Assembly (NCBI GenBank): GCA_014381305.1
Contig: JACNLW010000066.1
Location: 1-32,091 of the forward strand
From: Planctomycetota bacterium
GTDB taxonomy: Bacteria > Planctomycetota > Phycisphaerae > Phycisphaerales > SM1A02
DNA: 32,091 bases
Direction of reading: 5' to 3'
The notes beneath the pieces were generated by a model. It saw only the letters and a program-made list of their open reading frames with translations. It did not search any database and was not told where the DNA came from. Shown one piece after another: positions 2,800-32,091 of this stretch (the first letter of the stretch is position 1; every line of letters begins with the position of its first letter). The translations under genes were made by a program, and so were the position numbers.

Positions 2800-2823
2800 G
2801 AGTAGTTGCAGCGTACCAAATTA

Positions 2824-13656: not shown

Positions 13657-14357
13657 AGACTGATACTTTCCTAGAACAAATTTTCCCACTCTTGATTACT
13701 GGCGATCGCCCAAAAGCGCGAGCACTCGTTGGTGAAGCAATTACAAGTGGATGGACACCTGAAGAAGTTGCAGAGAATGGTTTTTGGCCAGCACTCGAAA
13801 CAATTCAATCACTGTATAGAAGCGACCAAATTACAAACCTTGCACATCATTATGCAACACGTTTGCTTCGTACGCTCGTTGACCAAGTACAAGCTGGCTA
13901 TCACAAACAACAAACGAATGGTAAATCAATTCTCTTGTTCTGCGGACCAAGCGAAGGTGATGACCTTGCAGCACAGATCGTTGCAGATCTCTGCGAAGCT
14001 GACGGTTGGCAAGTGAAGTTTGGCGGCGGTGGCGTTGCAGCAGATGAAATTCTCGCTGAAACAAACGAATGCAAACCAGATGCACTGTGCATGTTCTCAT
14101 CAGCTGCTTGTGATGCACCGCATATTCGTGGCATTATCGATACGATCAAAGAAGTTGGCGCTTGTCCCAATACGCAAATCGTTGTTGGTGGCGGTCTCTT
14201 TAATCGTGTCGAGGGTCTTGCTGAAGAAATCGGTGCAGACCTCTGGGCAAGTTCACCATCAGAACTCAAAGAAAAAATCATTACAGAATCTACACGCCGA
14301 GCAACGGAAGACCAACGCACTGTTGGACGAAATATTCGACCAAGTAAAGCCGCGTAA
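13653..14357 (+). CDS. B12-binding-domain-fold protein lacking the ligand histidine
   Basis: The protein is 234 aa and cytoplasmic. Residues 1-85 form a helical cap like the B12-binding helical domain of methionine synthase and CarH, including AHHYATRLLRTLV where the family usually has EHFATALLR. Residues 93-215 fit a Rossmann-like B12-binding domain: the first strand and loop ILLFCGPSEGDDLAAQ, FSSAAC at the SxL position and VVGGGLF with the GG motif. In the DxHxxG region the cobalamin-ligating His is replaced by Leu105 and the Gly by Gln108. Binding may thus be base-on, altered or lost. The start is GTG 13653, with AAGGGG 7 nt upstream. No partner methyltransferase, mutase or DNA-binding domain is attached or adjacent, so the function is open. 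Confidence 0.8.
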   Translation: MKTDTFLEQIFPLLITGDRPKARALVGEAITSGWTPEEVAENGFWPALETIQSLYRSDQITNLAHHYATRLLRTLVDQVQAGYHKQQTNGKSILLFCGPSEGDDLAAQIVADLCEADGWQVKFGGGGVAADEILAETNECKPDALCMFSSAACDAPHIRGIIDTIKEVGACPNTQIVVGGGLFNRVEGLAEEIGADLWASSPSELKEKIITESTRRATEDQRTVGRNIRPSKAA

Positions 14358-14381
14358 CGATACATAAACCTCTTTTCCGAG

Positions 14382-14418
14382 AATCCAACGAGCCTTCAAG
14401 GGCTCGTTGGATTTTTTT
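14382..14418 (+). terminator. Intrinsic terminator after the B12-fold gene
   Basis: A 10-bp perfect stem (CCAACGAGCC at 14385-14394 and GGCTCGTTGG at 14401-14410), extendable by A-T pairs, has a TTCAAG loop and is followed directly by ATTTTTTT. This is a textbook Rho-independent terminator and separates the gene from the tandem paralogs downstream. Confidence 0.92.
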
Positions 14419-14449
14419 ACGTTATGATTGTTTTATAGAGGAGTTTTAT

Positions 14450-16927
14450 ATGCATTACGCACGAACATTGATATTTTTTTTAGGGCTACTTCCAATATTT
14501 GTTTCATCAACGGTTTTTGGGCAAGCGATGCCAATGTTCAACGATCCGTTGAAGATTCGAGAAATAGAGCGATATGCTGAACGCCTTGAACTGACATCTC
14601 CACAGAAAGATGGGGTACTTCAGGCGTATGATCAATATGTGGTTGCTTACGCAAAAGTCCGGAAGGGTGAAATACAAAAATTTGAAGATTTTGTAACAGC
14701 GTTTATTGAAAATTTTGGTTTTATGCAATTTCAAATTCCAGAGCGAGAAGATATTCACGATTTGATTGCAAAAGGAAAGCGGGCAATGAAAAGTATTGAT
14801 CGTGTTGACAATATTTTTTTTGATTCAATACTTGGAATGTTGACGGAACGACAGCAACGAGTGTTAAAAAGAATTCGCAATGAACGGCAACTCGCAGCGT
14901 ATCGAATCATTGTCCTAGAGATGCTCTCAGAGTTTAACAAAAGTTCAAGCCCAAACATAACCCAACTCGTTCAACAAGTTGTGAAGGGGGAATCACTAGA
15001 AACCGAAGCATCTCTTGAATTGTATGAACAAAAAATGGTGCGGCATGCTGAAGGCTCACTTGAAGCAATGATCAAGGTTATTGACCAAGCGTTAGATATG
15101 GTTGATGAAATGGGTTTGCGCGGGATGGAACGCGAAGAGATGTTCATGATTTTTATGGACAAAGAACAGCTGGCTAATCTTGAAGCGAAGGGGAATATTC
15201 TCCTTGCGCCGTTGCAAAAGCAAGCAGCTGAGATCAGTGAACTTCATTGGAAAACATGGAAATCAATTGATTCTCAAATTGCAGAAGAGTACAGACGCCC
15301 ACTTGCGATGAAATATTTTCGCAGAGGTTTTTGGGAGCCGATTCGTGGATATGAGAAAATTGACAACCGTTTTAGAAAAGCGTTGGACATGAAATTGAAT
15401 GAGGGGCAGAAGCAAGAACTGCTTTCACTTCAAAAAGATTATGAAGACCGTAGTTTGTCTTTGGCTACAAAATATGCGAAACTTTTAGTTCAAGCGTGGG
15501 AGAAACGGACGATCGAGCAACAAAGAAAACGCACATCACCATTTGATGATCGAATCGCTCAAGCAGACGATGATCGAAAAAAACTTGTAGACACAACTAC
15601 CGCGCGTTTCGAAGGCATCCTTGGTTCTCATCTTGTAGCAGAACTTGACGGCAAAAAACGAAATGAAGAAAAAGCAGAAAATGGTATGATTAAGGTGACG
15701 AAGGAAGATGGTTCGGTCTATTACGACGACGACCCAGCAGTAGATAAAACTAAAAAAGTTGATGCAGCGTCAAAACCGATTAAAGTAAATCTTGTTGGGG
15801 GTGTAAACATTCCAAAACCTATGGGAAGCACATTTGCAAAAGATATTGCGTTGCAACTGGGTCTTGGAACTGAAGGTGAGGATATTGTCAACGCACTCTT
15901 TACTGATTATCGTGAAAAATACAATGCATACTACGATACACTCAAAGCTGAATGCGTAACATTTGATCAAAACAAATCGCTTGGTTTAGGTGCACGTTTG
16001 AAAAAGAAACAGGATCTAACAAACAAGGCAAAAGAAAAAGTGACCGACTTGGAAGTTGCATTTTTTGATGATTTGGCAGTTGTGACTGGGTTTGAAAGAG
16101 ACGATCCACTTGTGCAAATGCTAGAGCAGTTTAGGATGAGAAAACGAATCACAAGCACTGGAAGTAGGTACGGTTGGGGTCGATCCACCGACAAGGTTCT
16201 AGACCTTGTCGATGTTTTTGTAATTGATGATGAGCCACTGGTTTTGACAGAAAACGGAAAAGCGATCCTAGACAAAATGATGCTCGAATACCAACAACAA
16301 GCAGATGTGCAATTTCAAGAAATTGTCCAAGCTGAGTATGACATGAACCATTTTTCAGATGCAATGATGCTTGCTAGTGAGTTCAGCAAAACTCCCATGA
16401 ACACTACTGACATGCAAAAAAAATGGAGTGACGCATTCACAGCAATACGCGCGGCAAAACAAAATCTTATTCGATCCAACCAAGTACTCGTTGATACGTT
16501 ACTCAGTGAAATTCCACAGGAAGATTACTGGACAGTCAGGATGCACTATGTAAAAGTTGCGTATCCAAATATTTTTGAAGACAAAGGTGAAGTCACGACT
16601 ATTCTAGAGGCAGCAAGTGCAATTCAATCTCTTGACGGGGCGCAGCAGGGCGAAATTACAAGAATGCAGGAGCAGTATCGCCAACAATATTGGAATCTTT
16701 GCGAGTCAATGATCGTGATGAATGAAGCTGCAGTGTTAGAAGAAAGTAATGGTAGTATGATCTCACAGAGTGCGATGAAAAATAAGATCGATGAAGAGAA
16801 ACTACGATTTGAGCGTTCTGAATTGAACGATCGAATGCGCATGCGACTTCGCATGGTGCTGAGTGAGGATCAAATCAAGCACGTGCCTGGTCTGCGACCT
16901 GCTGTGACTGCGAGTGCTGAAAAATAA
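14450..16927 (+). CDS. Secreted helical LTxxQ-like repeat protein, paralog 1
   Basis: The protein is 825 aa and of unknown function. A signal peptide (about 1-25, cleaved near VFG-QA) implies export. The mature part is almost all helix, rich in Lys, Glu, Gln and Met. Four related units are visible, at about 40-150, 305-400, 465-560 and 720-815. Each has an LTxxQ- or LNxxQ-like helix, a Tyr-rich helix and often an FFDxILGMLTERQ-like helix. The pattern recalls Spy/CpxP LTxxQ proteins, though that link is only by resemblance. An AGAGGAG site precedes the ATG. It is the upstream member of a tandem pair with 17132-19786; the mature N-terminus (QAMPxxxDPxKIRExER) is conserved between them. The last 35 codons are nucleotide-identical to those of the paralog. 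The stop codon runs into the first palindrome. Confidence 0.82.
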   Translation: MHYARTLIFFLGLLPIFVSSTVFGQAMPMFNDPLKIREIERYAERLELTSPQKDGVLQAYDQYVVAYAKVRKGEIQKFEDFVTAFIENFGFMQFQIPEREDIHDLIAKGKRAMKSIDRVDNIFFDSILGMLTERQQRVLKRIRNERQLAAYRIIVLEMLSEFNKSSSPNITQLVQQVVKGESLETEASLELYEQKMVRHAEGSLEAMIKVIDQALDMVDEMGLRGMEREEMFMIFMDKEQLANLEAKGNILLAPLQKQAAEISELHWKTWKSIDSQIAEEYRRPLAMKYFRRGFWEPIRGYEKIDNRFRKALDMKLNEGQKQELLSLQKDYEDRSLSLATKYAKLLVQAWEKRTIEQQRKRTSPFDDRIAQADDDRKKLVDTTTARFEGILGSHLVAELDGKKRNEEKAENGMIKVTKEDGSVYYDDDPAVDKTKKVDAASKPIKVNLVGGVNIPKPMGSTFAKDIALQLGLGTEGEDIVNALFTDYREKYNAYYDTLKAECVTFDQNKSLGLGARLKKKQDLTNKAKEKVTDLEVAFFDDLAVVTGFERDDPLVQMLEQFRMRKRITSTGSRYGWGRSTDKVLDLVDVFVIDDEPLVLTENGKAILDKMMLEYQQQADVQFQEIVQAEYDMNHFSDAMMLASEFSKTPMNTTDMQKKWSDAFTAIRAAKQNLIRSNQVLVDTLLSEIPQEDYWTVRMHYVKVAYPNIFEDKGEVTTILEAASAIQSLDGAQQGEITRMQEQYRQQYWNLCESMIVMNEAAVLEESNGSMISQSAMKNKIDEEKLRFERSELNDRMRMRLRMVLSEDQIKHVPGLRPAVTASAEK

Positions 16928-17076
16928 ACTCACCGGGGGTGAGTTAAAAAATAAACTCACCGGGGGTGAGTTAATCGTGAAAATTATAAAAAGTTGACCC
17001 CGGGTGAAATAATCGTTGATTCTGCAACGCGAGGTGATCAAAAGCAAATGGACACGATTAATTCACCCGCGGTCTA
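16823..17076 (+). repeat. 254-bp perfect direct repeat, copy 1
   Basis: This copy is identical, base for base by eye, to 19682-19935 (offset 2859). It covers the last 35 codons of paralog 1, the stop codon and 149 bp of downstream DNA with four palindromes. The identity starts abruptly inside the coding sequence and stops at the end of the fourth palindrome. About 25 bp of weaker similarity follows. Confidence 0.95.
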
Positions 17077-17097
17077 GGATATTTCACCGCGGGTTAG
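16927..17097. repeat. Palindrome array 1 (ACTCACC-NNN-GGTGAGT family)
   Basis: Two perfect 19-bp palindromes, AACTCACCGGGGGTGAGTT, lie at 16927-16945 and 16954-16972. Three degenerate members follow, all with a 3-nt G/C spacer: TTGACC-CCG-GGTGAA at 16994-17008, TTCACC-CGC-GGTCTA at 17062-17076 and TTCACC-GCG-GGTTAG at 17083-17097. A longer inverted repeat is superimposed: GGTGAGTTAATCGTG at 16965-16979 pairs with CACGATTAATTCACC at 17053-17067 at 14 of 15 positions. On the minus strand the perfect palindromes are followed by TTTATTTTT runs, so they could form terminators in that direction. The rest of the gap between the two paralogs holds only the possible promoter of paralog 2. Confidence 0.9.
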
Positions 17098-17126
17098 TTT
17101 ATTTCCATTGAATTTACAATTATAAT
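17098..17126 (+). promoter_or_regulatory. Possible promoter of paralog 2
   Basis: A perfect TATAAT lies at 17121-17126, only 5 nt before the first candidate ATG (17132). A weak -35 (TTTATT, 17098-17103) lies at 17-bp spacing. If used, transcription would begin almost at the start codon, giving a leaderless message. The palindrome at 17083-17097 would then be centred near -43. The region is A/T-rich, so a chance match is possible. Confidence 0.35.
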
Positions 17127-17131
17127 ACAAT

Positions 17132-19786
17132 ATGTTTACTATGAAACAATCACTTATTACTGCTCTTTTTGTACTTTTGGCGAGTTTGTTTTTTGTAGAT
17201 AAAGCAAGCGCTCAAGCAATGCCTTTGCTTTCTGATCCAGTGAAAATCAGAGAGTTCGAACGCATGTCAGAGAAACTTGATTTGACATTACTGCAACAGG
17301 AAGCAGCGATCGAAGTGTATGACAGATACCTTGATACCTTTTCAAGAGTTCGGAAGGGTGAGATACAAGCGTTCGAAGATAGCATTGCAGATGCGACAGA
17401 AACTTTTGGGTTTATGCAATTTTCTATCCCAGAACGTGACTTGATTGAAGATCTAATTCGAAAAGCAAAGCGAGCGATCAAAGCAATACATCGATCAGAT
17501 TCTTCATTCTTTGAAGAAATTTCCGGAATGTTGACAGAAAAACAACGTGTTATTCTTACGAGAACTCAAATTGCCCGTGAACTTGAAGCGTATGAAGTAT
17601 TCATTCAATTCATGATCGGGCAGTTGAATGAAGGTGCTGGGGCGCAGATCAGAAAGTATTATGATTCTCTTCAACATGAATCAAACAAAGAACTTGACGA
17701 AGTGATGGATCAATACGATCAGCGATATTTGAAAGAAGTCAAACAAGGATTTGATGCCGTTGTTGAAACAATTGGACTTATACTTGACATGATCGATGAA
17801 TTGGGTATTCGCGATCAGGATCAACAAGCGTTGATGATGAAGTACATGATGGATGAAGGCGCGATTGAAGATTTAAAAAGGCGAGGGGATTTGCTTCTTA
17901 AACCGCTTGTCGATCAGGCGTATGCAATCAGCCAATTGAATTGGAAAACATGGAAAAAAATAGACGCTCTACTCGATACTGATGATGCAAAATCACTTCG
18001 AGATCGATATTTCAATGCATCTTTTCGTACAGCCATGCGAGGTGGTTCAAAAATTGAGAAATATATTAATCGTGCACTGAAGCACAGCGATTTACTTGAG
18101 AGTCAACGAATCGACCTTGAAGAATTACAGAGTTCTTTTGAAACAAAATGGAAAAAGAAAACAAAAAATCACGCTGAACTTCTAGAAAAATCAAGGCAAA
18201 TTCAATCTGTTGCAACAATGATGGGAGAAAGCACAACACCGTTTGTTGCAAAACTTGCAAAACTTGAAGAAGAACGAGAAGCGTATATTCAAGCAACAGA
18301 AGACCGAATTGATTCTATTCTTGGAACTGTTCTTGCAAAAGCATTGCATAAGAGTAATGCTTCTCCAATGAAGTTCTTGTTTGATCAAGCGATGGTTGAT
18401 GAATCGATGGATTCAACGGAGAGTGTGCAGATAATTGTTGGTTCATCAACAACACATGATATTGAAATGACAGATGAGCAAATTGAATCGTTGATTGCTT
18501 CTGGTGAGTTTGAATCAGTTGATGGCTCGGGTTCGATGGTTGTTTCTAGTAGCATCAGTTTTGGTGAACCAATCGAAATGGATCAATTAGAAAGTGTGGA
18601 AGCTGATCCTTCGGTCCAATTTGCTTCTTCTACAACAACTCAAGGCACGAGTACAATTCCAAAACCAATTGCCCCATCTTTTCCCGCACGCTCGTCTGTA
18701 GTTTTGGGTCTTGATGAGAATGGCGAAGTTATTATTGGTGCTGTCTATGACGAATACAGAGAGAAATATACGCTTGCAAGAGAAACTGTTTCAATTGAGT
18801 CTAAAAAAATCTCAGACGATGTTTCACTCACACACGCAGAGCGACTACGAAAAAATCGCGAGATAAGCCAAGGGGCTGCTGCATCAGTTGCAGTTCTTGA
18901 TACAGCATTTTTTGATGATCTTGCAACAATTACAGACTTAGAGCGAGATGACTTGAATCTGAAGATGCTTGAAAACCATAGAGATCGTCAACGCACCTCA
19001 GTTCCAGATGATCCGTTTGGCTGGCGAGGCGGGGAGGGGGATACGATTGATTTGGTTGGGTTATACGTCATGTCTGATGTTTCAGATGATTTACACGAAG
19101 GTATTTCGACTACTTCTATTCAAGAAATCCGAACTGCAATGCAACAATATCATGATCAAATTACAAGTGTGCATAAGTCATTTGTGGATGCACAATATGA
19201 AATGAATCACATGGAAGATGCAATGTATTTGATTAGCGAGTCCCAAACTAGTGGCCGTGTAGCGGAGTCAGTACAGGGAAAATGGATGGATACTTTTACA
19301 AATCTTCGAGATGCCAAGAGAGCGTTAATGCTTGCAAATCAAGAAGTCATGGATACGTTACTCAAGGTAGTTCCCGAATCTGACTTTTGGAAAGTTCGAA
19401 TGGAGTATGTTAAAAAAGCATACCCAGATGTTTTTAAGAAAAGTTTAGATATAACAACGATGTTAAAAGCAGCTGTATCCATTCCAAATTTAGATCCAGC
19501 TCTAAAGGGACAACTTGAAACACTTGCCACATCATATCGATCGGACTATTGGAATATTTGCGAAGCCATGATAGACAATCACAAATCTAATGCTTCGGCA
19601 GTGAGCGGCAATCAAATGATGAGTAAGGAAGACATGCACAGACAACTTCGTTTGGAAACATTGCGATTTGATCGAAAGGAGTTGAACGATCGAATGCGCA
19701 TGCGACTTCGCATGGTGCTGAGTGAGGATCAAATCAAGCACGTGCCTGGTCTGCGACCTGCTGTGACTGCGAGTGCTGAAAAATAA
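17132..19786 (+). CDS. Secreted helical LTxxQ-like repeat protein, paralog 2
   Basis: The protein is 884 aa, of unknown function, and parallel to paralog 1 along its whole length. A signal peptide (cleaved near ASA-QA) is followed by the shared QAMPLLSDPVKIREFER start. Four related helical units lie at about 40-150, 310-405, 520-620 and 780-875, with features such as SSFFEEISGMLTEKQ and TAFFDDLATITDLERDD. A longer acidic, Ser/Thr-rich linker (about 410-510) replaces the short linker of paralog 1 and ends at the same IPKP. The first three-quarters are only moderately similar to paralog 1, yet the last 35 codons are identical in DNA. The start may be ATG 17132 or ATG 17141; neither has a ribosome site. 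The gene is convergent with the FAD/Fe-S dehydrogenase gene. Confidence 0.82.
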   Translation: MFTMKQSLITALFVLLASLFFVDKASAQAMPLLSDPVKIREFERMSEKLDLTLLQQEAAIEVYDRYLDTFSRVRKGEIQAFEDSIADATETFGFMQFSIPERDLIEDLIRKAKRAIKAIHRSDSSFFEEISGMLTEKQRVILTRTQIARELEAYEVFIQFMIGQLNEGAGAQIRKYYDSLQHESNKELDEVMDQYDQRYLKEVKQGFDAVVETIGLILDMIDELGIRDQDQQALMMKYMMDEGAIEDLKRRGDLLLKPLVDQAYAISQLNWKTWKKIDALLDTDDAKSLRDRYFNASFRTAMRGGSKIEKYINRALKHSDLLESQRIDLEELQSSFETKWKKKTKNHAELLEKSRQIQSVATMMGESTTPFVAKLAKLEEEREAYIQATEDRIDSILGTVLAKALHKSNASPMKFLFDQAMVDESMDSTESVQIIVGSSTTHDIEMTDEQIESLIASGEFESVDGSGSMVVSSSISFGEPIEMDQLESVEADPSVQFASSTTTQGTSTIPKPIAPSFPARSSVVLGLDENGEVIIGAVYDEYREKYTLARETVSIESKKISDDVSLTHAERLRKNREISQGAAASVAVLDTAFFDDLATITDLERDDLNLKMLENHRDRQRTSVPDDPFGWRGGEGDTIDLVGLYVMSDVSDDLHEGISTTSIQEIRTAMQQYHDQITSVHKSFVDAQYEMNHMEDAMYLISESQTSGRVAESVQGKWMDTFTNLRDAKRALMLANQEVMDTLLKVVPESDFWKVRMEYVKKAYPDVFKKSLDITTMLKAAVSIPNLDPALKGQLETLATSYRSDYWNICEAMIDNHKSNASAVSGNQMMSKEDMHRQLRLETLRFDRKELNDRMRMRLRMVLSEDQIKHVPGLRPAVTASAEK

Positions 19787-19935
19787 ACTCACCGGGGGTG
19801 AGTTAAAAAATAAACTCACCGGGGGTGAGTTAATCGTGAAAATTATAAAAAGTTGACCCCGGGTGAAATAATCGTTGATTCTGCAACGCGAGGTGATCAA
19901 AAGCAAATGGACACGATTAATTCACCCGCGGTCTA
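19682..19935 (+). repeat. 254-bp perfect direct repeat, copy 2
   Basis: This copy matches 16823-17076 exactly. It covers the last 35 codons of paralog 2, its stop and 149 bp of downstream DNA. It ends 2 bp before the stop codon of the convergent gene at 19938. Similarity continues weakly across the next palindrome (19942-19956). Confidence 0.95.
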
Positions 19936-19960
19936 TGTTATCTCACCGAGGGTGAGTTTA
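19786..19960. repeat. Palindrome array 2 (ACTCACC-NNN-GGTGAGT family)
   Basis: Perfect AACTCACCGGGGGTGAGTT palindromes lie at 19786-19804 and 19813-19831. Degenerate ones lie at 19853-19867 and 19921-19935. A further good copy, CTCACC-GAG-GGTGAG, is at 19942-19956 and lies inside the 3' end of the minus-strand gene. The array occupies the whole space between two convergent genes. Read on the minus strand, the perfect stems are followed by TTTATTTTTT, as expected for a terminator of the convergent gene. Confidence 0.9.
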
Positions 19961-22760
19961 TAACTTCAAGCGGGTGGCGAATGGACAGTTGCTCGATTCG
20001 TTTTGCTTGGGAGTGGCAAGAATATCCAGTGGTGAGTGAATCGGAAGCGGTCGGTGCATGCCTCCCCCAAGTTTGGTTCCATATTTTGATGGATTGTTTT
20101 TTATGTTCTTTTTCGTGCCCAAACATGCCTCCCATTCCACAACATGAAGTGTTGACAATTTCTATATGGGATCCAATTTTTTCAAAAATCTGTTGCCACT
20201 GCATCTCACTATTTTTTACAAGTGCTCTCTCGTTGCAGTGGGGGAACAACCGCCAATTCCCTTCTATTTCTAATTTTGAGAGATCTTGTTCAACAAGCCA
20301 CTCTTGTGGAAGGAGTACGCTGATGGGCTCGGAGCCGAGAATCTGCGGGTATTCGTCTCGCCATAACAATGTTGTTGCTGGGTCAATGGCAACAATCGGA
20401 ATGTTCGTTCCTTGAAGTTGTTTAAGCCACTGTACATTTGCGTGAGCAACAGCATGAAATGCTCGCAATTTTCCACGAATATGCAGTGCTTTTCCAGAAG
20501 GTCTGATTGGTAGTACAGAGACATTCAATCCAAGCGTATGAACAATCTGCAAAAAACTTGTGACAACTTGAGGTCGGAAGTACGTCGTAAATGAATCTTG
20601 AAGAAGAACGACATCTGGTTGGTTCTGAATGATCTCACTCACTCTTGAAGTTTTTGTTTTCAATTTGTGTGCAATAGTTGGTGAATCAACAATTCCAAAG
20701 AATGGTGCGAGAACGCTTCCTATTTTCAATGGAAAGCAAGAGAGGAATAATTCCATTCTGCTCCAAACTAAATCCCGAAGGGGGCGTGGATATCTGCTGT
20801 AGTAATATGACAGAAACTCTGAGCGCATCTGTGGAATATCAATTTCCATAGGGCAATCACTTACGCACGCTTTACAAGCAAGACACCCATGCAGCGATTC
20901 GTACACATCATGCGAAAAATCATCTTTTGCGAATCGATTGAATAAACGGTTAATCCAAAAACTTTTTGTTGAAACTTTTCGGCCGCCAATTCTATGTAAC
21001 CAGTGGCGGAGTAATTCAGCTCGGCCCCTTGGACTGTGGAATGGGTTGCCATTCACTCTATACGTCGGGCACATCGCCTCATCGAATTTGGCACTTTGAC
21101 ACTGGCTGTTTCCATCGCACTGTAGGGAGTTTGCAATGATAGGCAACTGAGGGGTATTGCTATTCGTGTGCCCACGGTTTTGCGAATCAATGGAAACAAG
21201 CGGATGGTGTTGCGTTACTCCCGCAACTTTTTCAGGATTGAATTGGTTCGTAGAATCAAATGCTGCTTTGACTCGGCATATTTGTTCCCACAATCCTTCT
21301 CCAAAAACCCGCGGACCGTATTCACTTCGAAAACCCTTCCCATGTTCACCCCAGAGGATCCCGCCATAAGAATGCACAAGATTCGCAACTCCATCTGTCA
21401 CAGTACGAATCAACGATTGATCATGCGTATCACAAAGATCAAGTGCGGGGCGAACGTGTATCACCCCAGCGTCAACATGCCCAAACATACCCGATCGGAT
21501 ACTGTGTGTATCTAGCAAGGAACGAAAATCACAAATGAAATCAGCAAGTTTTTCAGGAGGTACTGCGCAATCTTCTACAAAAGGAACTGGGCGTTTGTGA
21601 GTCCCTGAAGATGAAAGTAAACCAACACTTTGGTTTCTGAACTGCCAAACTTTTTGTATTTCTTCGTCGGTTTCTAGTAAGGTTGCAGAAAGAACGCCTT
21701 CATTGAGCAACACTGCTTCTTTTAATTTTGTACCTTCCTTGCATTCAATGCACAACATTGCAGCAGCGCTTTTCTCAATAAAGGTAGCCGTATTTTTTCT
21801 CGCAGCATGTAGCACTAACTCATCAACCACTTCGACAGCGGATGGTTTTAGTGTTGCTATTGCTGCACCGCAGCGGAGTGCTGCATCGAAAGTAGAAAAT
21901 CCAACAACAACAAGTTGTTGATCTGTTGGAATTTCAACGCACTGTAGTGTTGCCTCTGTGACAACACCTAGGGTTCCTTCGCTACCACAAATAATTCGGT
22001 TGAGATCGAATGTTTCACCATCCCACGCCATTGGGAGGTTGTAACCAGAAACGAAGCGGGGGAGGTTTGGCCAATACTCTTCGAAAAATTGCTTTGCCGA
22101 ATCACAAGCGCGGGCGACTTCACGATGTATATCGCCAACAACACCCGGAATGGTTTCAAGGTTCTCGAGTTCCTTTGTTGCTTGTGAATCCCACACAACA
22201 CCGCCACGAAGAACAGTTCGCAGCGAAACAACGCAGTCGCTCATTTTTCCATACACAAGTGAGCCTTTGCCGGCAGAGTCATTCCCAATCAATCCACCAA
22301 TCGTTGCACGATCTGCAGTTGCGACTGTTGGGCCAATCATTAATCCATATTGTTCTAATTCCTTATTGAGTGCAGAAAGTATGACGCCACATTCGACTGT
22401 GATTTGTTTTTTGTCTGCATCAAAGTTTTTGATTTGATTCAAAAATCGTTTGCAATCAAGAGACACGCTTTCCGTCAGTGATTGCCCTGCGGTACTTGTT
22501 CCACCACCACGGGGAGTGATCTTGATACTTTGAAATGTTGGTGTTGCGAGAAGAGATAACAAAATGGCAACATCGTCGGTGGAACGAGGTGCAATGATAG
22601 CACTTGGCATTTGTTCCCAAATAGAGTTATCATTTGACGCAAGAACTCTTGACGATTCATTTGTCGAAAGTTCACCTCTGAAACCATTCCCTAGGAGCAT
22701 GCTGAAAAGTTTCGCAAGAAGAGAAGAACAAGTTTGATCTCTTGGAAGTTGCGGGATCAT
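19938..22760 (-). CDS. FAD-binding and (Fe-S)-binding dehydrogenase, YdiJ/GlcD-like
   Basis: The protein is 940 aa. An N-terminal FAD-linked oxidase domain (PCMH type) shows PRGGGTSTAGQSL and TIGGLIGNDSAGKGS. A FAD oxidase C-terminal domain follows (GHVDAGVIHVRPALDL, GGILWGEHGKG). The Fe-S part has CDGNSQCQ...MCPTYR (about 546-566), CLACKACVSDCP (about 625-636) and a C-terminal CCG-type motif TSCCGMGGMFG (about 868-878). This matches the large fused D-2-hydroxyacid dehydrogenases such as E. coli YdiJ (D-2-hydroxyglutarate) and the D-lactate/glycolate group. The exact substrate cannot be told. The start overlaps the preceding stop as ATGA. The last residues, NSPSVR, are encoded by a copy of the palindrome repeat, suggesting the original C-terminus was altered. 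Confidence 0.9.
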   Translation of the reverse strand: MIPQLPRDQTCSSLLAKLFSMLLGNGFRGELSTNESSRVLASNDNSIWEQMPSAIIAPRSTDDVAILLSLLATPTFQSIKITPRGGGTSTAGQSLTESVSLDCKRFLNQIKNFDADKKQITVECGVILSALNKELEQYGLMIGPTVATADRATIGGLIGNDSAGKGSLVYGKMSDCVVSLRTVLRGGVVWDSQATKELENLETIPGVVGDIHREVARACDSAKQFFEEYWPNLPRFVSGYNLPMAWDGETFDLNRIICGSEGTLGVVTEATLQCVEIPTDQQLVVVGFSTFDAALRCGAAIATLKPSAVEVVDELVLHAARKNTATFIEKSAAAMLCIECKEGTKLKEAVLLNEGVLSATLLETDEEIQKVWQFRNQSVGLLSSSGTHKRPVPFVEDCAVPPEKLADFICDFRSLLDTHSIRSGMFGHVDAGVIHVRPALDLCDTHDQSLIRTVTDGVANLVHSYGGILWGEHGKGFRSEYGPRVFGEGLWEQICRVKAAFDSTNQFNPEKVAGVTQHHPLVSIDSQNRGHTNSNTPQLPIIANSLQCDGNSQCQSAKFDEAMCPTYRVNGNPFHSPRGRAELLRHWLHRIGGRKVSTKSFWINRLFNRFAKDDFSHDVYESLHGCLACKACVSDCPMEIDIPQMRSEFLSYYYSRYPRPLRDLVWSRMELFLSCFPLKIGSVLAPFFGIVDSPTIAHKLKTKTSRVSEIIQNQPDVVLLQDSFTTYFRPQVVTSFLQIVHTLGLNVSVLPIRPSGKALHIRGKLRAFHAVAHANVQWLKQLQGTNIPIVAIDPATTLLWRDEYPQILGSEPISVLLPQEWLVEQDLSKLEIEGNWRLFPHCNERALVKNSEMQWQQIFEKIGSHIEIVNTSCCGMGGMFGHEKEHKKQSIKIWNQTWGRHAPTASDSLTTGYSCHSQAKRIEQLSIRHPLEVINSPSVR

Positions 22761-24436: not shown

Positions 24437-24457
24437 TTGGTGCAGGATACTCGGTTC

Positions 24458-24496
24458 TTAGCAAGGACCCCACGCACCAATGAGAATGAGGAGGTC
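24458..24496 (-). repeat. 39-bp identity at the 3' ends of the two dockerin genes
   Basis: The last 39 bp of gene A, covering the stop codon and DLLILIGAWGPC, are identical to 27967-28005 at the end of gene B. The codons upstream of these blocks differ at silent sites. This fits either strong constraint on the dockerin end or local recombination between the paralogs. Confidence 0.85.
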
Positions 24497-27400
24497 ATCA
24501 ACATCCACGATGCCATTTCCATTTAGATCAAGTGTTGGATTAGCAGAGCCAAATCCAGCAATGAGCGATAGCAGGTCATCAACATCAACGATTCCACTTC
24601 CGTCAAAGTCCGCAGGACATGCGAGCGCAGTTTCGTTCAGATACACACTTATTGCTGGAGAGTTTGCCCGCATGGCTGGTGCTAAGTCGATGACAGAAAC
24701 AATATCAGTTAAGCCATCTGCATCAAAGTCGCCTGTTGCAATAAGCGTAGGTTCGCTTCCAGAAGCAACTGGTGCTCCAATATCTGAAAGAACAGTTGTC
24801 GTTGATACAGTCGTGTCGTTGCGAATAACTGTTAACTCTCGAGTAAGTGATGTGCTGCCGATAGCGGAGAGAACAAAATCATCATCCCCGTCATTATCAA
24901 AGTCGGCTACTGCAATGCTTTGCGGTTGAGTTCCAACGGGAATGGTTGAAGGGATATTTAGTGACGAGCCATTTCCATGAAGTAGACTAATCGTATTGCC
25001 TGCACTGTTGATCGTAATATAATCTTCATAGGTATCTCCGTTTAATGCAGCGAACGAAGCTGCCACGGGAGTGCTACCAGTTGGAAGTCCAATTGGCATA
25101 GAAAGCGGATCGAGTGTCCCCCCAGTTCCATCGCCACGTTTTACCGTAACCGAATTGCCAGAGTTACTGAGAATGATAAGGTCACGATCAAGATCTTTCG
25201 TATCGTTGATATCAGTTGGGTCGATTGAAGTAGGGATTGGAGTTGACCAAGTTGAGTTGTAGTTAAATGTTGCAACTCTTGGACCTCTTGCTGCCATGAC
25301 CGTTGCGTTTGTATACATCTCCACACCAACAGGAGTACTACTGTCACATCCGACTGCAATGTCAGCAAGGCCGAGCAGATCACTTGTGTCGAAATCACCT
25401 ATAGCCAATGAGATTGGACCGTTTCCAGTTGCGAGTGTAGTAGTTGTAAAACTAGCACTGCCATCATTCAGTAAAATAGTAACTGTATTATCGTTGTAAT
25501 TTGCTACAACGAGATCAAGAGTGTTGTCATTATCAAGATCACCAACTTCAATATCTTCAGCTGTTGACCCTGTTGCAATGATAATCGGAGCAGCAAAACC
25601 TTGCCAAACACCTGCGGTCATTCCGTTGTTAAGCAAAACATAAACACTGCCTGTACCAGCAGTTGTTGTCGCCGAGTACGCAATATCTACACCGTTGATG
25701 CCATCAAAATCTGCAACAAGGAAATCAGAAGGTGTTTCTGTGATAGAAACTGCATTTGCAATTCCAAAAAGAATTGGTCCAGTTGTTGTGACGTTCGTTT
25801 CTCCTCCGCCACGCAAACTAGCAGTTCCAATCCACTGCGTTGTGAGTTCATTTGGCAAACCGGTACTCATCAAGACGCGAGGAAGGTTTGTGAGGCCTCC
25901 AGCAGCAGAAATGAGATCAAAAGAAGTGCTCTCAAGAGGTGTCCAACTTGGTGAATATCGAAGAACGACACTGAGATCGATTAAATCCGCATACCCATCG
26001 ATAGAAACGTAATCATGATCGATGCCTTGCAATGTTCCGTCGATATCGAAAGTCATCACACCGGCGTATAGTTTGTTTTCAATCAGAGGACCATCGTAGT
26101 TTCCTGTGATTCTAGCAGTCGCTATATCTAATCCTGCAGGGCTGAGGTCACCACCACTGTTAACAAGATTGCCAGCATGCGTTCCACTTAGTATGAGCGT
26201 TGCACCGTCACTAATATCAAGTGAGGTTGTTTGGAGCAGCGCAGAACTGTTGATTTGAATTGTGCTATGTGATCCACAAATTTCAAAACTACTATCTAAA
26301 ATCAAACTCCCATTTTCAATTGAGAGCTTTGCATCATCGTGAAACGCTCCAATTGACATCGCTTCATTTGTGTCTTTCACTTCAATTGTTGTGCCACTTA
26401 AGTTCATACTAAACACACCGCTTGCAACTGTAAGTGAATTGAGAGTCACATTAGTTCCGGGAGTGAATGCAATATCAGTGACGCTAGTGATATCAAAAAG
26501 AGCTTCATCATCAAGACCAGGTACCTCAAGTGGAAGCCAATTGAACGAATCATCGAATTGATTGGAGTTCGATCCAGACCAAATCCGAGTACCAGCAAAG
26601 CCTGCATCTGATGAGATGTATTCATACGGTCCCATGTCGCTCACGGGGTCGCCCGGTGGATTATCACCCGAGTTATCTGTAAAGGGATCATCGATAAACC
26701 GAAGGTGACCATCAAGATCAGGAGAGACGGTGACATCTGCGTTATGCGCGGCATCTATACAAGGAGATGTCGCTTTGAGGCGAAAGTTTTCATCTCCAGA
26801 GCCTTCGTTATCTATGAATCGTGGGTTGTTATCTATGTTGCCATAGAGCATGAAGCTAACAGAAAGATTATCAACGCAACTGTAGGTGATTGTCAGCGTG
26901 CCGTTTGGAACTTGGACTTGATCTTCATTTCCATCCTCGGTATCGTTATCCCAGAGGATCGAGTTCACAATTGTAGCAGTTGCACCTTCAACTGCGATGC
27001 CTCCAATAAGTTGCGCTTCATTTTGTACTACAGTTGTACTTCTCATTTCTAAATCACCAAGCAGCAACATCGCTCCACCTTTTTCTTCATGTGCTCTGTT
27101 TGCTGCAATCAAACATGTATTGATTACTGCTGAACCCGCTGAGAAAATTCCTCCTCCTTTGAGTGTTGCCATATTATGTTGGATATTAGTGCTTGTGATG
27201 TTGAGTGTGACTATCGCAGAATTGCATGCAATACCACCACCAATTCTTGCGGTGTTTCTGTGGATGTTACATCGATTGATGTAGATAGGTTTTGTTGTTG
27301 TATCGTCAATAAAAATACCGCCTCCTGTTGAGTCGATTGCCGAAAGCGCATTCCCCGCGGAAATTTGAATACTGTCAAAAGTAAGAGCGTTTGTTGTTAC

Positions 27401-27841
27401 ACCTGTAACTGTGAAAACGTGGTATGCATTTTCTCCGTTTGATCCACCGGTATTGTCATCACCAAACAAGTCACCACTTATGATTGTTGGGTTTGCAAAA
27501 AGAATGCGCTCAGAAAGTGTACTCTCTGTTCCAGCAAACCCTCCATAGAGACCAATTCCATAACTTAATTCAAAAGTTGCAGTGCGGTCGTCTACACCAT
27601 CTGTGCGTGTTGGGATGTACGTTCCTGTGGCGATCCAAATATCATCATTTGTTAGTGCTGCATCAATCGCGTTATCTAGTGACTGGAATGCATTGGTCCA
27701 AGATGTGCCATCTCCGCCAAGAGGGGAGGATTGATCAACGAACCAAATGGTTCCACTTTGCCCGCTTGCGATTGTGGTAATGCATACGCTCCAAAGGAGG
27801 AACATGGAAATAGTTGTGGTTATCTTTCTCTTTTGCATCAT
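24458..27841 (-). CDS. Giant secreted beta-helix / FG-GAP / dockerin protein A
   Basis: The protein is 1127 aa. A signal peptide (about 1-28, cleaved near ASG-QS) is followed by IWFVDQ...GGDGTSWTNAF, the start of a right-handed parallel beta-helix of the polymorphic outer-membrane/choice-of-anchor type (to about residue 400). A module with the NW...P...DEALFD pattern follows (autotransporter-like beta segment, about 420-640). FG-GAP/VCBS repeats come next (ADFDGINGVDIAY, GDLDNDNTLDLVV, ADFDNDGDDDFVL, GDFDADGLTDIVS; about 715-1055). The C-terminus is a dockerin-like pair of calcium loops (DFDGSGIVDVDDLL, DLNGNGIVDVDDLL) ending GAWGPC. The ATG at 27841 is followed directly by a second ATG. A possible promoter (TTGCTG, 19 bp, GATAAT) lies in the 125-bp gap before it. 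It is a tandem paralog of the next gene. Confidence 0.88.
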   Translation of the reverse strand: MMQKRKITTTISMFLLWSVCITTIASGQSGTIWFVDQSSPLGGDGTSWTNAFQSLDNAIDAALTNDDIWIATGTYIPTRTDGVDDRTATFELSYGIGLYGGFAGTESTLSERILFANPTIISGDLFGDDNTGGSNGENAYHVFTVTGVTTNALTFDSIQISAGNALSAIDSTGGGIFIDDTTTKPIYINRCNIHRNTARIGGGIACNSAIVTLNITSTNIQHNMATLKGGGIFSAGSAVINTCLIAANRAHEEKGGAMLLLGDLEMRSTTVVQNEAQLIGGIAVEGATATIVNSILWDNDTEDGNEDQVQVPNGTLTITYSCVDNLSVSFMLYGNIDNNPRFIDNEGSGDENFRLKATSPCIDAAHNADVTVSPDLDGHLRFIDDPFTDNSGDNPPGDPVSDMGPYEYISSDAGFAGTRIWSGSNSNQFDDSFNWLPLEVPGLDDEALFDITSVTDIAFTPGTNVTLNSLTVASGVFSMNLSGTTIEVKDTNEAMSIGAFHDDAKLSIENGSLILDSSFEICGSHSTIQINSSALLQTTSLDISDGATLILSGTHAGNLVNSGGDLSPAGLDIATARITGNYDGPLIENKLYAGVMTFDIDGTLQGIDHDYVSIDGYADLIDLSVVLRYSPSWTPLESTSFDLISAAGGLTNLPRVLMSTGLPNELTTQWIGTASLRGGGETNVTTTGPILFGIANAVSITETPSDFLVADFDGINGVDIAYSATTTAGTGSVYVLLNNGMTAGVWQGFAAPIIIATGSTAEDIEVGDLDNDNTLDLVVANYNDNTVTILLNDGSASFTTTTLATGNGPISLAIGDFDTSDLLGLADIAVGCDSSTPVGVEMYTNATVMAARGPRVATFNYNSTWSTPIPTSIDPTDINDTKDLDRDLIILSNSGNSVTVKRGDGTGGTLDPLSMPIGLPTGSTPVAASFAALNGDTYEDYITINSAGNTISLLHGNGSSLNIPSTIPVGTQPQSIAVADFDNDGDDDFVLSAIGSTSLTRELTVIRNDTTVSTTTVLSDIGAPVASGSEPTLIATGDFDADGLTDIVSVIDLAPAMRANSPAISVYLNETALACPADFDGSGIVDVDDLLSLIAGFGSANPTLDLNGNGIVDVDDLLILIGAWGPC

Positions 27842-27966
27842 CTTGTTATTCGCACTAGGAACTGTAAGTATGCAGTAGAGAACAAGATTATCCAGTTAAA
27901 TACAGTTGATTCAGCAATGAAACTGTTACAGCGAGTCCGATAACAATATTATTCTTGTGTTCCTCG

Positions 27967-30900
27967 TTAGCAAGGACCCCACGCACCAATGAGAATGAGG
28001 AGGTCGTCAACATCAACAGTGCCTGATCCATCAATATCTAAGGCTGGATCTGCACTACCCCAGCCAGCAATGAGTGCAAGGAGATCATCCACATCTACAC
28101 TCCCAGAGCCATCTACATCAGCTGCACATGTTACTGCGGTGATATTTAAGTACAAACTTAAGGCAGGGGAGTTTGCTCTGAAATCAGGTGCTAAATCAAT
28201 GACTGAAACGATGTCTGTTAACCCGTCTTCATCAAAGTCTCCAGTAGCAACAAAGGTAGGATCGCTTCCATTTCCAACAGGATCTCCAATACCTAAGATG
28301 AGCGTCGATCCTGAAGAGTCATTTCTAATAATTGCAAGTTGTCGTTCGCCCAAAGCATCAAGTTCAGAAACAACCAAATCTTCGTCTCCGTCATTATCAA
28401 AATCAGTTGTTGCAATACTTAAAGGTTCATCGCCAATGGAAATGGTGGATGGGTTGTTTAAAGTTGAGCCCGTGCCAGTTAAAATACTCAAAGAATCTCC
28501 ACCGTTGTTTACGGTGATGTAATCTTCGTATGCATCTTCATTCAACGTGCCAATACTTGCACTAACTGGGCTACTACCACTTGGAAGTCCAAAGGGGAAT
28601 GCCATGAAATCAATTGTGTTTCCCGCGCCATCTCCACGTTTTACTGTGACAGAGTTCCCTCCATTGCTGAGAATAATAAGATCCAGATCCTTAGTGTCAT
28701 TTACATCAGTTGGATCAATCGATGTAGGCACAGGAGAAGCCCACGTTGAAGTCAGGCTAAACACTACAGCCCTCGATGCCAGTGTTGTTGAGTTTGTATA
28801 TACTTGCACGCCAACTGGGCTACTGCTTTCACAACCAACAGCAAGGTCTGGGAGATTTAATCCATCACTTGTATCAAGATCTGCAATCGCGAGACATATT
28901 GGACCAGTTCCAGTCGCAAGCGTTGTTGTAGTAAAGTTCCCAGTACCATCATTGAGCAGAATAGTCACTGTGTCATCGTCGTAATTAGTCACAGCGATAT
29001 CGATTGATCCATCACTATCGAGATCACCTATTTCAAGATCTTCTGCACTTGAACCCGCCGAGACACTGATCGGAGCTGCAAATCCCTGCCAAACGCCACC
29101 GGACATTCCCATGTTTAGTAGGATCTCAACTGATGCAGGGCCACCAATAAGTGAAGGTATCGACATAGCAATGTCTGATCCATTTACTCCATCAAAATCT
29201 GCAACAATGATATCGTTTGGTGTTCCACTAATTGCAGTTGTTGTACCACCATCAAAAAGAATTGGCCCTGTTGTGACAACTGTTGCATCGCCTCCGCCAA
29301 GGAGGCTTCCGTCTGTAGACCATTCACACCCAAGATTGCTTGGTAACCCACTGTACGTCATCACGCTTGGTGTTCCGGTGATAGTGGGTGTAGCACTGAT
29401 GAAATCAAACGTTTGATTGATTGATGGAGTCCAATCATATCGCAACTGAATCGCGACATTTGTTAGATCAGCAAATCCATTGATATTAAGATAATCATAA
29501 CTGATGCCCTGTGTTGAACCCTGAATATCAAAAACGATTTTACTTGGGAGGTAAGGATCTCGCGCGGGATCGGTCTCATTTAAACTACCAATGATAGTTG
29601 CGCTAGCAATGTTCGTTCCACCAAGGTCAATTACACCACCAGATACAAAAATATCAGAGGTGATCTCATTGCCTATGTTGAGCGTAGCGCCATTTTCTAC
29701 ATACAGATTGGTACTATAAAGAAACGAAGTACTATCAATCTCTAATTCATTCCACTCGCCAGAAATTCTCATGTCACCTTGTGCGTATACGCTTCCATTC
29801 TTAATACCCAGAAAGGAACGGGTCCCAGTTTGTCCAATTTGAATTGGATTCACAATGTTTCGGAATTGAAGAAAATACCCGTTCAGATCAAATTTTATCC
29901 TTCCTTGAGTAACATTAATGTTGTCTATAAGAATAGCTTCAGCAGCAACAACATCATGTATTCCTGATACATCAAACAATGCAGTGTCAAATTCGCCCGG
30001 AACACTGTTTGGCAACCAATTTCCTTCATCTTGAAACACTGTTGAGATTAATTCAGACCAAATGCGAACGCCATCTTGTCCAATAACCGCAGGTATCAAT
30101 TCGTAAGGTCCCATGTCAGCGATTGGGCTGCCTGTAGGATTATTGCCAGTATCTACAGTGTAGGGGTCATCAATAAAACGGAAGTTACCAGCAAGATCTA
30201 ACACAGTAGTAACTAACGTGTTGTCACCTGCGTCGATGCAAGGGGAGCCTTGGAATAAATGAAAATTTTCATCTCCAGTTCTGACCACACCATCATCTCC
30301 GAGTGGATTTGCAAAATGAGGGTTTGCAGCAATATTACCATTACCATTAAGATCATTTGGTAATTCTTCAATACAACTGTACCTCGCAGTCGCTGATGCA
30401 CCATTTCTATTAATCTGAGCAGTTGAACCATACGTGCTCTCGTTTCCCCAAAGAATCGAGTTATACACATCAACAGAAGAACCATGTGCAGAAACACCAC
30501 CAGTAAATATCGCAGCATTTTGAGAAATTGTTGTATTGGTGATAGAGATGTTTCCAGTGGCAATGATTCCGCCACCGATTGTAGATTCGTTTCCGGTAAT
30601 CTCACTTGTGTTGATAGAGAGATCACCATTGACATATACACCACCACCATACGACCCTGCGATGTTCAATTTAACCTTCACTTTGAGAAGCGATACACTT
30701 GAGCCAGAATCAACGCCGATCGCACCACCATCGATGGCATTGTTTCCTTGAATGCGACATAAATTCACTTCGAGTGGAACAGTTGTGGAATTGTGGATGT
30801 GAATACCACCACCAAGTTTTTCTATTGCATCATTGGCATTACCACCATAGATCCAAAATCCGTCAATCGTAATAGAGCCTGTGGTTACATTAGATGATGT

Positions 30901-31749
30901 GATTACGTGATATGCGTTTTCACTATTATTTCCACCGGCGTTATCATCACCATTGAGATCACCAGTAAGTATTGTGTGATGTAATGATACATCTCGATCC
31001 TCGACCGATAGTTCTGTTCCATCAAATCCGCCGTACATACTAACTGGTTCGCGGATAGTGAATGAAACGCTTCGAGGGTCGCCGATGTCTGTTTCTATAG
31101 TAGGGGTATAAGTTCCTTCAGCGATCCATATTTGATCTGTACTAACAGCAATTGCAAGTGCCTCTTCAATTGTACGGAACGCGTCACTCCAAGAAGTTCC
31201 TCCGCCAGTTGCAGGCGTATCTCGGTCAACATACCAGATGTTTCCAGTTCCGCCTCCGCTCGCAGCAGCGACCGTTAATTCTCCAAAACCGACTGCGCCA
31301 TTGTAACCACCGATTCGAACAAAGTATTCTGTTCCGGCAAACAGACTCATTTCAATTTCTGAATAATAAGATTGACAATTATTGTTTGTATTGGCACTAT
31401 CACCATTACATGCAATTTGGACAAGGCTTCCGCACGATCCACTATATAAAACCATAGAAGTGTCATAACTATCAACATTACAAGTAGAAAAGTTGTACGT
31501 GTCGTTCACAGTTGGAGTAAATACAAACCAAACGTCAGGGCTGCTATTCCAACCTAGATATGTTCCTGAACACATCGCTTCATCGGGATCAGGTTCATTG
31601 CTTGGAGTTGCACTCGATGTGTCAAAATAGTTTGGACCAGCGATAGATGCAGTCATTGCATCCCAACATTCATCACCACTTGTTTGGGCTTTTACTTGCG
31701 TGGCACAACAGAGTATCACAACAGATAGGATTGTAATTGTCTTAACCAT
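27967..31749 (-). CDS. Giant secreted PPC-like / beta-helix / FG-GAP / dockerin protein B
   Basis: The protein is 1260 aa. A signal peptide (about 1-21, cleaved near VKA-QT) is followed by a PPC-like beta domain (about 25-160; DVWFVFTPTVNDTYNFSTC, TSMVLYSGSCGSLVQIAC). The order then matches protein A. A beta-helix starts at IWYVDRDTPATGGGTSW; an autotransporter-like module has NWLPNSVPGEFDTALFD. FG-GAP/VCBS repeats follow (ADFDGVNGSDIAM, GDLDSDGSIDIAV, TDFDNDGDEDLVV, GDFDEDGLTDIVS). A C-terminal dockerin (DVDGSGSVDVDDLL, DIDGSGTVDVDDLL) ends GAWGPC. The extra N-terminal domain accounts for much of the size difference from protein A. A good AAGGTGAG ribosome site precedes ATG 31749. It is the first gene of a likely four-gene minus-strand unit. 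A surface or extracellular matrix role is inferred. Confidence 0.88.
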   Translation of the reverse strand: MVKTITILSVVILCCATQVKAQTSGDECWDAMTASIAGPNYFDTSSATPSNEPDPDEAMCSGTYLGWNSSPDVWFVFTPTVNDTYNFSTCNVDSYDTSMVLYSGSCGSLVQIACNGDSANTNNNCQSYYSEIEMSLFAGTEYFVRIGGYNGAVGFGELTVAAASGGGTGNIWYVDRDTPATGGGTSWSDAFRTIEEALAIAVSTDQIWIAEGTYTPTIETDIGDPRSVSFTIREPVSMYGGFDGTELSVEDRDVSLHHTILTGDLNGDDNAGGNNSENAYHVITSSNVTTGSITIDGFWIYGGNANDAIEKLGGGIHIHNSTTVPLEVNLCRIQGNNAIDGGAIGVDSGSSVSLLKVKVKLNIAGSYGGGVYVNGDLSINTSEITGNESTIGGGIIATGNISITNTTISQNAAIFTGGVSAHGSSVDVYNSILWGNESTYGSTAQINRNGASATARYSCIEELPNDLNGNGNIAANPHFANPLGDDGVVRTGDENFHLFQGSPCIDAGDNTLVTTVLDLAGNFRFIDDPYTVDTGNNPTGSPIADMGPYELIPAVIGQDGVRIWSELISTVFQDEGNWLPNSVPGEFDTALFDVSGIHDVVAAEAILIDNINVTQGRIKFDLNGYFLQFRNIVNPIQIGQTGTRSFLGIKNGSVYAQGDMRISGEWNELEIDSTSFLYSTNLYVENGATLNIGNEITSDIFVSGGVIDLGGTNIASATIIGSLNETDPARDPYLPSKIVFDIQGSTQGISYDYLNINGFADLTNVAIQLRYDWTPSINQTFDFISATPTITGTPSVMTYSGLPSNLGCEWSTDGSLLGGGDATVVTTGPILFDGGTTTAISGTPNDIIVADFDGVNGSDIAMSIPSLIGGPASVEILLNMGMSGGVWQGFAAPISVSAGSSAEDLEIGDLDSDGSIDIAVTNYDDDTVTILLNDGTGNFTTTTLATGTGPICLAIADLDTSDGLNLPDLAVGCESSSPVGVQVYTNSTTLASRAVVFSLTSTWASPVPTSIDPTDVNDTKDLDLIILSNGGNSVTVKRGDGAGNTIDFMAFPFGLPSGSSPVSASIGTLNEDAYEDYITVNNGGDSLSILTGTGSTLNNPSTISIGDEPLSIATTDFDNDGDEDLVVSELDALGERQLAIIRNDSSGSTLILGIGDPVGNGSDPTFVATGDFDEDGLTDIVSVIDLAPDFRANSPALSLYLNITAVTCAADVDGSGSVDVDDLLALIAGWGSADPALDIDGSGTVDVDDLLILIGAWGPC

Positions 31750-31798
31750 TTTCTCACCTTTTAGTACTCTTTTAACCAGAGATTCACTTCTGAATCAC

Positions 31799-31827
31799 GT
31801 ACTACTATGACACAACAAAACCAGCAA
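31799..31827 (-). promoter_or_regulatory. Possible promoter of the dockerin/FG-GAP gene unit
   Basis: On the minus strand, TTGCTG (31827-31822) and TAGTAC (31804-31799) are separated by 17 bp, about 50 bp before the start codon. A perfect inverted repeat, GATTCA-CTTC-TGAATC (31781-31796), would lie at the predicted transcription start and could be an operator or leader hairpin. The -10 match is weak. Confidence 0.33.
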
Positions 31828-31917
31828 GTCTAGAAAATACTTGGTTATTTCATCTATATATTGAAACACACGCTTTTATACGTCCGAAAACTTCAATTTC
31901 ACGCATCCACCCCGAAA

Positions 31918-32032
31918 TAAACTCACCCCCGGTGAGTTTATTGTTTTTTACTCAAAATATGCAAAAACTCACCGGGGGTGAGTTTTGACCCAATTCACTC
32001 CAAATCTGAATAAACTCACCGGGGGTGAGTTT
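31918..32032. repeat. Palindrome array 3 (ACTCACC-NNN-GGTGAGT family)
   Basis: Three strong palindromes are evenly placed. At 31918-31940 the arms are 10 bp with a CCC spacer; at 31964-31986 they are 10 bp with a GGG spacer; at 32012-32032 they are 9 bp with a GGG spacer. Centres are 46-47 bp apart. The first is followed on the plus strand by TTGTTTTTTA, so it could terminate transcription in that direction. The first differs in spacer orientation from the other two. The stretch 31750-32091 contains no gene that I can see; 32033-32091 shows nothing notable. Confidence 0.9.
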
Positions 32033-32091
32033 GCTTAAAAGGAATGACACACTTGCATTGATATTGCAGGTGCAGGATTTGACGCCGCGGG

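Follow-up and report, generated by a model that had tools for sequence, protein, structure and literature searches.

How does a short palindrome come to stand in copy after copy at the ends of bacterial genes? The question is posed by a 32,091-bp stretch of DNA from a member of the Planctomycetota (contig JACNLW010000066.1 of GenBank assembly GCA_014381305.1, the whole of which is hereafter the window), in which the palindrome ACTCACC-NNN-GGTGAGT, here called P, recurs. A first reading of the letters alone (the original prediction) weighed an operator of a dimeric protein, a terminator and an element of the repetitive extragenic palindromic (REP) type. The answer that we consider likely is that P serves a REP-associated tyrosine transposase (RAYT), an enzyme of the Y1/HUH type related to IS200/IS605, as its REP-like palindrome, and that the inverted doublet of P is the probable mobile unit, spread in trans. 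Because arrays of P flank a RAYT gene on each side, and because a second RAYT is coupled to a palindrome of its own, P is best read in this way and not as an operator.

Amplification and doublets of one palindrome

The original prediction saw the family in one 15-kb stretch, and a scan of the whole genome (G000; 1.88 Mb in 114 contigs, 95% complete, the window being its contig C23) shows that it is not limited to that stretch. At up to one mismatch P occurs at 164 sites, 133 of them free of mismatches around a CCC or GGG centre, and a reversed-pattern control gave none. Eleven of 12 congeners hold zero to two sites each, and the twelfth (G009) holds 11, spread over three contigs. A longer 21-bp form, AAACTCACC-NNN-GGTGAGTTT, has 140 sites in this genome and none in the 391 others of a draw of 392 from the phylum, in which it was the sole member of its genus and the sole positive. 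The P family is amplified in one species and, as a short palindrome in many copies between genes, is a REP in the wide sense.

The copies are arranged in a recurrent manner. Sites were read at sequence level in 140 of the 164 cases, and the centre of these 140 distinct sites is GGG in 68, CCC in 59 and something else in 13. Among the 70 pairs of neighbors less than 200 bp apart, 40 have a spacing of 46/47 bp, and from left to right these doublets carry centres C to G in 24 cases, G to G in nine and C to C in seven; the order G to C never occurs, although the centre counts predict about ten such doublets (probability of zero ~1e-5). Inverted doublets with a preferred spacing are the anatomy of a REPIN, and the window’s pair at 31921/31967 folds into a single long hairpin (−41 kcal/mol, z −8.3). 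P clusters take the form of tandem, doublet and nested arrays. By eye, the cluster listing shows extra half-sites, AATAAACTCACCCCC to the left of P groups and GGGGGTGAGTTTATT to the right, so that nested hairpins result; the one in locus L043 has a 34-pair stem (−63.1 kcal/mol, z −14).

A second, related element, here called M, accompanies P. It measures ~78 bp, has imperfect inverted ends and is present in ~60 copies, mostly beside or between copies of P; its end pattern was found 59 times forward and 62 times reverse in this genome and zero to two times in the 12 congeners. Nesting is seen in M too, as in locus L118, where three left ends, one core and three right ends follow one another.

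A RAYT gene between arrays of P

What enzyme would move such a palindrome? A search of the genus (13 genomes) for Y1_Tnp returned ten genes in four genomes, among them a gene at G009:C131:2800-3132. Its open reading frame (ORF; 2770-3486, 238 aa) ends in GAATAA immediately before a copy of P. The flanking arrays, which lack M, hold P at 2574, 2621 and 2667 and, across the gene, at 3487 and 3533. The protein matches Pfam Y1_Tnp above the cut-off, and a profile of three RAYTs matches TnpArep 4er8 (E 2.4e-4) over a span that takes in the HxH motif and a conserved Tyr, which we take to be the catalytic one. This is the arrangement of REPINs, REPtrons and TIRtrons, in which a palindrome flanks a gene for a Y1/HUH transposase, and here it lies on a contig of inferred species. 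The genes on either side of the insert are ~1 kb apart on this contig, 15 bp apart in the sister species G005 and 20 bp apart in G002 (between aligned pieces), and in both of the latter a small hairpin of a different palindrome type, ACTACCT-NNN-AGGTAGT, occupies the insertion spot.

To which species does the contig belong? C131 is JACNLR010000084.1 of the metagenome-assembled genome NIOZ-UU88 (bin G009). Part of it has a second G009 ortholog, 73% identical, on contig C93, and C131 is 78% identical to both G002 and G005; the single gene that can be compared with a G009 version matches G005 at 81% identity in its C131 copy and at 61% in its C93 copy. Coverage according to the contig names is 10.5 for C131 and 4.9 for one other contig of the bin. 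Over 3.6 kb C131 has no match in G000, and a further 6.6 kb match it solely in short pieces (39-324 bp, 69-92% identical) that are probably paralogs. G+C content is alike and does not separate the contigs of the two species, and the other two P-bearing contigs of the bin show mixed identities. On these comparisons JACNLR010000084.1 has probably been misbinned and comes from another species of the genus, probably that of the window or a P-bearing sister species.

A second couple lies wholly within the window’s own genome. Its RAYT (G000:C87:50416-51332; L125:6417-7331) is 51% identical to the C131 RAYT and has AATTGACTCSGAGTCAATT palindromes, ~35 bp apart, on both sides; this family numbers 97 copies in the genome and none in the 12 congeners. 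Other RAYTs of the genus stand beside other repeats, with GGGGACTGTCCCC on both flanks of G007:C48, GGTCCGTACCAGACCC on both flanks of G007:C13 and GGGTCAGACCCCGGACC on both flanks of G008:C64 (the G007 and G008 loci being L189, L190 and L192). At G009:C7 (L188) the repeat is on one side only.

Linkage, together with the precedent of REPtrons (PMC8266576), REPINs (PMC3116915) and TIRtrons (PMC3733652), suggests that the RAYT moves P. Two copies of opposite sense, 46/47 bp apart, would fold into a single hairpin and so form a REPIN-like, likely mobile unit, which a RAYT acting in trans would recognise in single-stranded DNA, cut and rejoin. Copies would then spread into the DNA between genes, for the most part next to 3′ ends, where an inserted copy may supply a stop codon (AATAA directly followed by ACTCACC) and would make an RNA hairpin that may act as a terminator or 3′-end structure.

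Gene ends, sister species and rival explanations

Where do the copies lie relative to genes? Gene contexts were taken from ORFs with partial homology support, and not from a gene finder, in loci selected for their P sites, which also furnished the gene pairs of the background. Of 78 P clusters, 76 lie outside called genes and two inside unsupported ORFs; 20 are at contig or locus ends and 56 have a called gene on each side. These 56 fall between convergent genes in 24 cases, tandem genes in 20 and divergent genes in 12, and all gene pairs of the loci count 79 convergent, 225 tandem and 71 divergent. A tabulation of this kind had been proposed in the original prediction, and it returns an enrichment between convergent genes with an odds ratio of 3.6 (p = 6e-5, cluster pairs removed from the background). 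Moreover, a TAA stop codon adjoins P in 23 of 442 called genes, at an exact ACTCACC in 17 and a variant in six. One of these cases (L017) is probably unrelated and another, a 101-aa ORF in L025, is doubtful; in some 20 genes the stop codon comes from P.

The intergenic gaps are also longer than in a sister species. The comparison with G005 covered ~0.85 of 2.1 Mb, and the median protein identity between the two genomes is 86% (183 ORFs). In 16 gene pairs that are adjacent in G005 and enclose P or M in G000, the median gap is 349.5 bp in the latter and 128.5 bp in G005, and 14 of the 16 gaps are longer than their counterpart (sign test, 0.004); the 102 control pairs have medians of 17.5 and 24.5 bp, respectively. 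At the 19787 site, inspection by eye shows that in G002 the stop codons of the two convergent genes overlap, at a point where the window has ~150 bp of P and M.

How do other explanations fare against this evidence? An operator of a dimeric regulator, with P marking its regulon, is favored by the perfect arms of P, by its constant 3-nt centre and by the 12 of 56 clusters that lie between divergent genes. It is hardly credible in view of the excess of convergent pairs, the stop codons that adjoin P, the near absence of P from 11 of the 12 congeners and the tandem, doublet and nested arrays; this part of the original prediction was rejected on the orientation counts. The proposal that P is a bidirectional intrinsic terminator of the host, made uniform by gene conversion or selection and linked to a RAYT incidentally or later, is improbable. 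P hairpins are stable when folded, 132 of the 140 sites have a T-rich tail on one strand or both (83 of them on both), convergent genes are the favored setting, and in G005 some of the gene ends that bear P here have other hairpins, such as AATAAACAACCCGCGAGGTTGTTTATT. A consensus terminator scan of 14000-32091 gave 22 matches (15.4 expected), six of them copies of P. However, the four copies from 16928 to 19830 resemble terminators on the minus strand only, and the genes that end there run on the plus strand, on which these copies have no T-run. The terminator role named in the original prediction is plausible on sequence grounds and fails for some of the window’s copies. As the primary nature of P, a host terminator also sits badly with the clusters between divergent genes and leaves unexplained the 46/47-bp inverted doublets, the P-flanked RAYT and the second couple. 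In the sister species, hairpins of at least 8 bp are not clearly commoner in P/M gaps (three of 16) than in control gaps (six of 60). The general rule that P replaces resident terminators was likewise not borne out by these counts.

It is very unlikely that P is a passenger, carried by M or by a P-M-P composite and spread by another transposase. M is restricted to the species as P is and has imperfect inverted ends, and many clusters hold both elements with conserved junctions; many other P clusters lack M, as do the arrays that flank the RAYT, and no RAYT of the genome has M within 1.5 kb. The RAYT-linked reading has several points to answer as well. The C131 protein scores 55.3 bits in the RAYT model (NCBIfam NF047646, REP_Tyr_transpos; cut-off 80), although all five RAYTs tested fall below this cut-off, the C87 enzyme at 56.8 bits, and it lacks one Arg common to its two relatives; because of the missing Arg and the low score, it may be divergent or inactive. 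The three Y1_Tnp genes of the window’s own assembly have neither P nor M within 1.5 kb, and C131 was binned with G009, its reassignment being our inference. A set of 80 RAYT relatives from named genomes yielded an ORF in 78 cases, and only ten of the 78 show a palindrome common to both flanks, the C131 contig included, a count made without a control. Sixteen of the 40 doublets are same-sense, and the GTAG/CGTC tag is absent, with GTAG or CTAC in seven of 280 14-nt flanks and CGTC or GACG in none. Finally, the sister-gap comparison yielded no exact insertion boundary or target duplication, since the gaps differ too much. With these points set beside the species-restricted amplification, the inverted doublets, the intergenic and 3′-end placement and the P-flanked RAYT, the REP-like option of the original prediction is the one supported.

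The palindrome seen at the insertion spot in the sister species is of the same build as P. Among the 13 genomes, ACTACCT-NNN-AGGTAGT is confined to G005 (21 copies) and G002 (18), and the 11 that lack it include G000; the genus search found no Y1_Tnp gene in G005 or G002. The compared part of G005 contains 11 such sites, seven of which have a flank match in the loci compared. In two loci, L049 and L063 (the RAYT), the site is 0-3 bp from the start of the P arrays, and the other five flank-matched sites show no such exact coincidence. At L049 a 236-aa gene (L049:4085-4795; G000:C59) lies between P arrays where G005 has only the ACTACCT-type hairpin, and it is possible cargo; its size raised the suspicion that it was the missing RAYT, but the encoded protein is unlike a RAYT and, on inspection by eye, resembles a potassium-channel protein.

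We put forward, as a tentative and rather doubtful idea, that RAYT-palindrome couples turn over as dialects of species and that a new palindrome inserts at a hairpin already resident at a gene end, either directly on it or within its loop. The five non-coinciding sites and the lack of a clear hairpin excess in the sister gaps count against it. If true, invasion of older hairpin sites would explain both the nested arrays of half-site, P and half-site and the P sites that coincide with the older ACTACCT palindrome of the sister.

The window and related systems

In the window, the eight good copies of the original prediction were recovered as seven exact copies and one with a single mismatch, at coordinates that differ by 1-3 nt (Table 1). 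Up to three mismatches allow ten matches, where 100 shuffles averaged 0.99 and never exceeded 3, and no match lies before 16928, in agreement with the reported lack of copies in the first 16 kb. The list of spacers held for GGG and CCC, the centres of six and one exact copies, respectively; GAG and GCG occur only in mismatched matches, and CCG and CGC in none of the ten. Sequences with the last two centres are more likely parts of M. Four of the eight good copies lie inside a 300-bp duplication, so the window’s three P clusters are not all independent.

Table 1 Positions of P, M and the duplication in the window
Feature	Position	Strand	Remark
Duplication copy 1 (gene tail, two P, M)	16796..17095	+	95% identity to 19655-19954
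P copy, GGG centre	16928..16944		exact match; adjoins TAA stop of 825-aa gene 14450-16927
P copy, GGG centre, 27 bp after 16928 copy	16955..16971		exact match
M element, imperfect inverted ends GACCCCGGGTGAAATAATCG / CGATTAATTCACCCGCGGTC	16996..17074		both ends matched; one-stem fold, z −3.6
Degenerate P-like match, 3 mismatches, GCG centre	17082..17098		could be chance (~1 expected at such mismatch level)
Duplication copy 2	19655..19954	+	95% identity to 16796-17095
P copy, GGG centre	19787..19803		exact match; adjoins TAA stop of 884-aa gene 17132-19786
P copy, GGG centre	19814..19830		exact match
M element, copy 2	19855..19933		both ends matched
P copy, one mismatch, GAG centre	19941..19957		read as altered C-terminal tail of minus-strand 940-aa gene 19938-22760
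P copy, CCC centre, left half of doublet	31921..31937		exact match
P copy, GGG centre, right half of doublet, 46 bp after 31921	31967..31983		exact match
P copy, GGG centre, 47 bp after 31967	32014..32030		exact match

The duplication includes the ends of two paralogous genes (14450-16927 and 17132-19786), the tails and downstream DNA of which are 95% identical and the bodies diverged; the near-identical tails reflect recent duplication or gene conversion. The sister G005 protein ends differently from the 940-aa gene product, whose C-terminal tail is P sequence. Rfam 15 gave no match in the window at the gathering score.

Is this a known kind of element? The original prediction recognised no described family. 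That holds for the sequence, no account of which was found in the open-licence literature, a search that left most subscription journals outside; the kind, a palindrome linked to a Y1 transposase, has been described. The sections of Di Nocera et al. (2013, PMC3733652) on TIRtrons and their transposases (TIRYTs) present untagged, partly self-complementary repeats that flank a Y1 tyrosine transposase gene, are amplified in the genome and often form dimers or clusters. P shares all of this, being untagged, present on each side of the C131 RAYT and unrelated to GTAG REPs; the TIRtron repeats have other sequences, are moderately abundant and in some cases contain a GGGGWSAS motif, and these sections give no description of nested half-site arrays. 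REPINs, as portrayed in the relevant parts of Bertels and Rainey (2011, PMC3116915), resemble P in their opposite-sense REP doublets of fixed spacing, RAYT linkage and intergenic position, whereas P has 24 inverted doublets among its 40, no GTAG tag and nested half-sites. In the pertinent parts of Corneloup et al. (2021, PMC8266576), the REPtrons of TnpAREP group 3 pair perfect short palindromes with an HUH enzyme, as P appears to do, but the REPs of groups 2 and 3 are preceded by a GTAG that the enzyme uses. GTAG- and CGTC-tagged REPs are, like P, palindromes (of 20-40 bp) that lie close to the 3′ ends of genes, in convergent and tandem intervals, and GTAG REPs often provide a TAG stop codon, according to the REP sections of PMC3733652; P has no tag and offers TAA instead. 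P belongs to neither the GTAG nor the CGTC superfamily, its make-up is closest to that of TIRtron repeats, and its anatomy suggests that it works like a REPIN. It thus appears to be a new family of a known kind, a RAYT-linked, untagged REP/REPIN-like palindrome of a planctomycete.

For the organism, these probably mobile hairpins remodel the ends of genes, stop codons included, and P arrays at many contig ends may be one reason for the broken assembly. For the family, two sibling enzymes that are 51% identical are coupled to quite different palindromes, of 164 and 97 copies, each linked to one small genome and nearly absent from relatives. The P and C87 couples therefore offer a natural pair in which to ask how such transposases read untagged, perfect hairpins.

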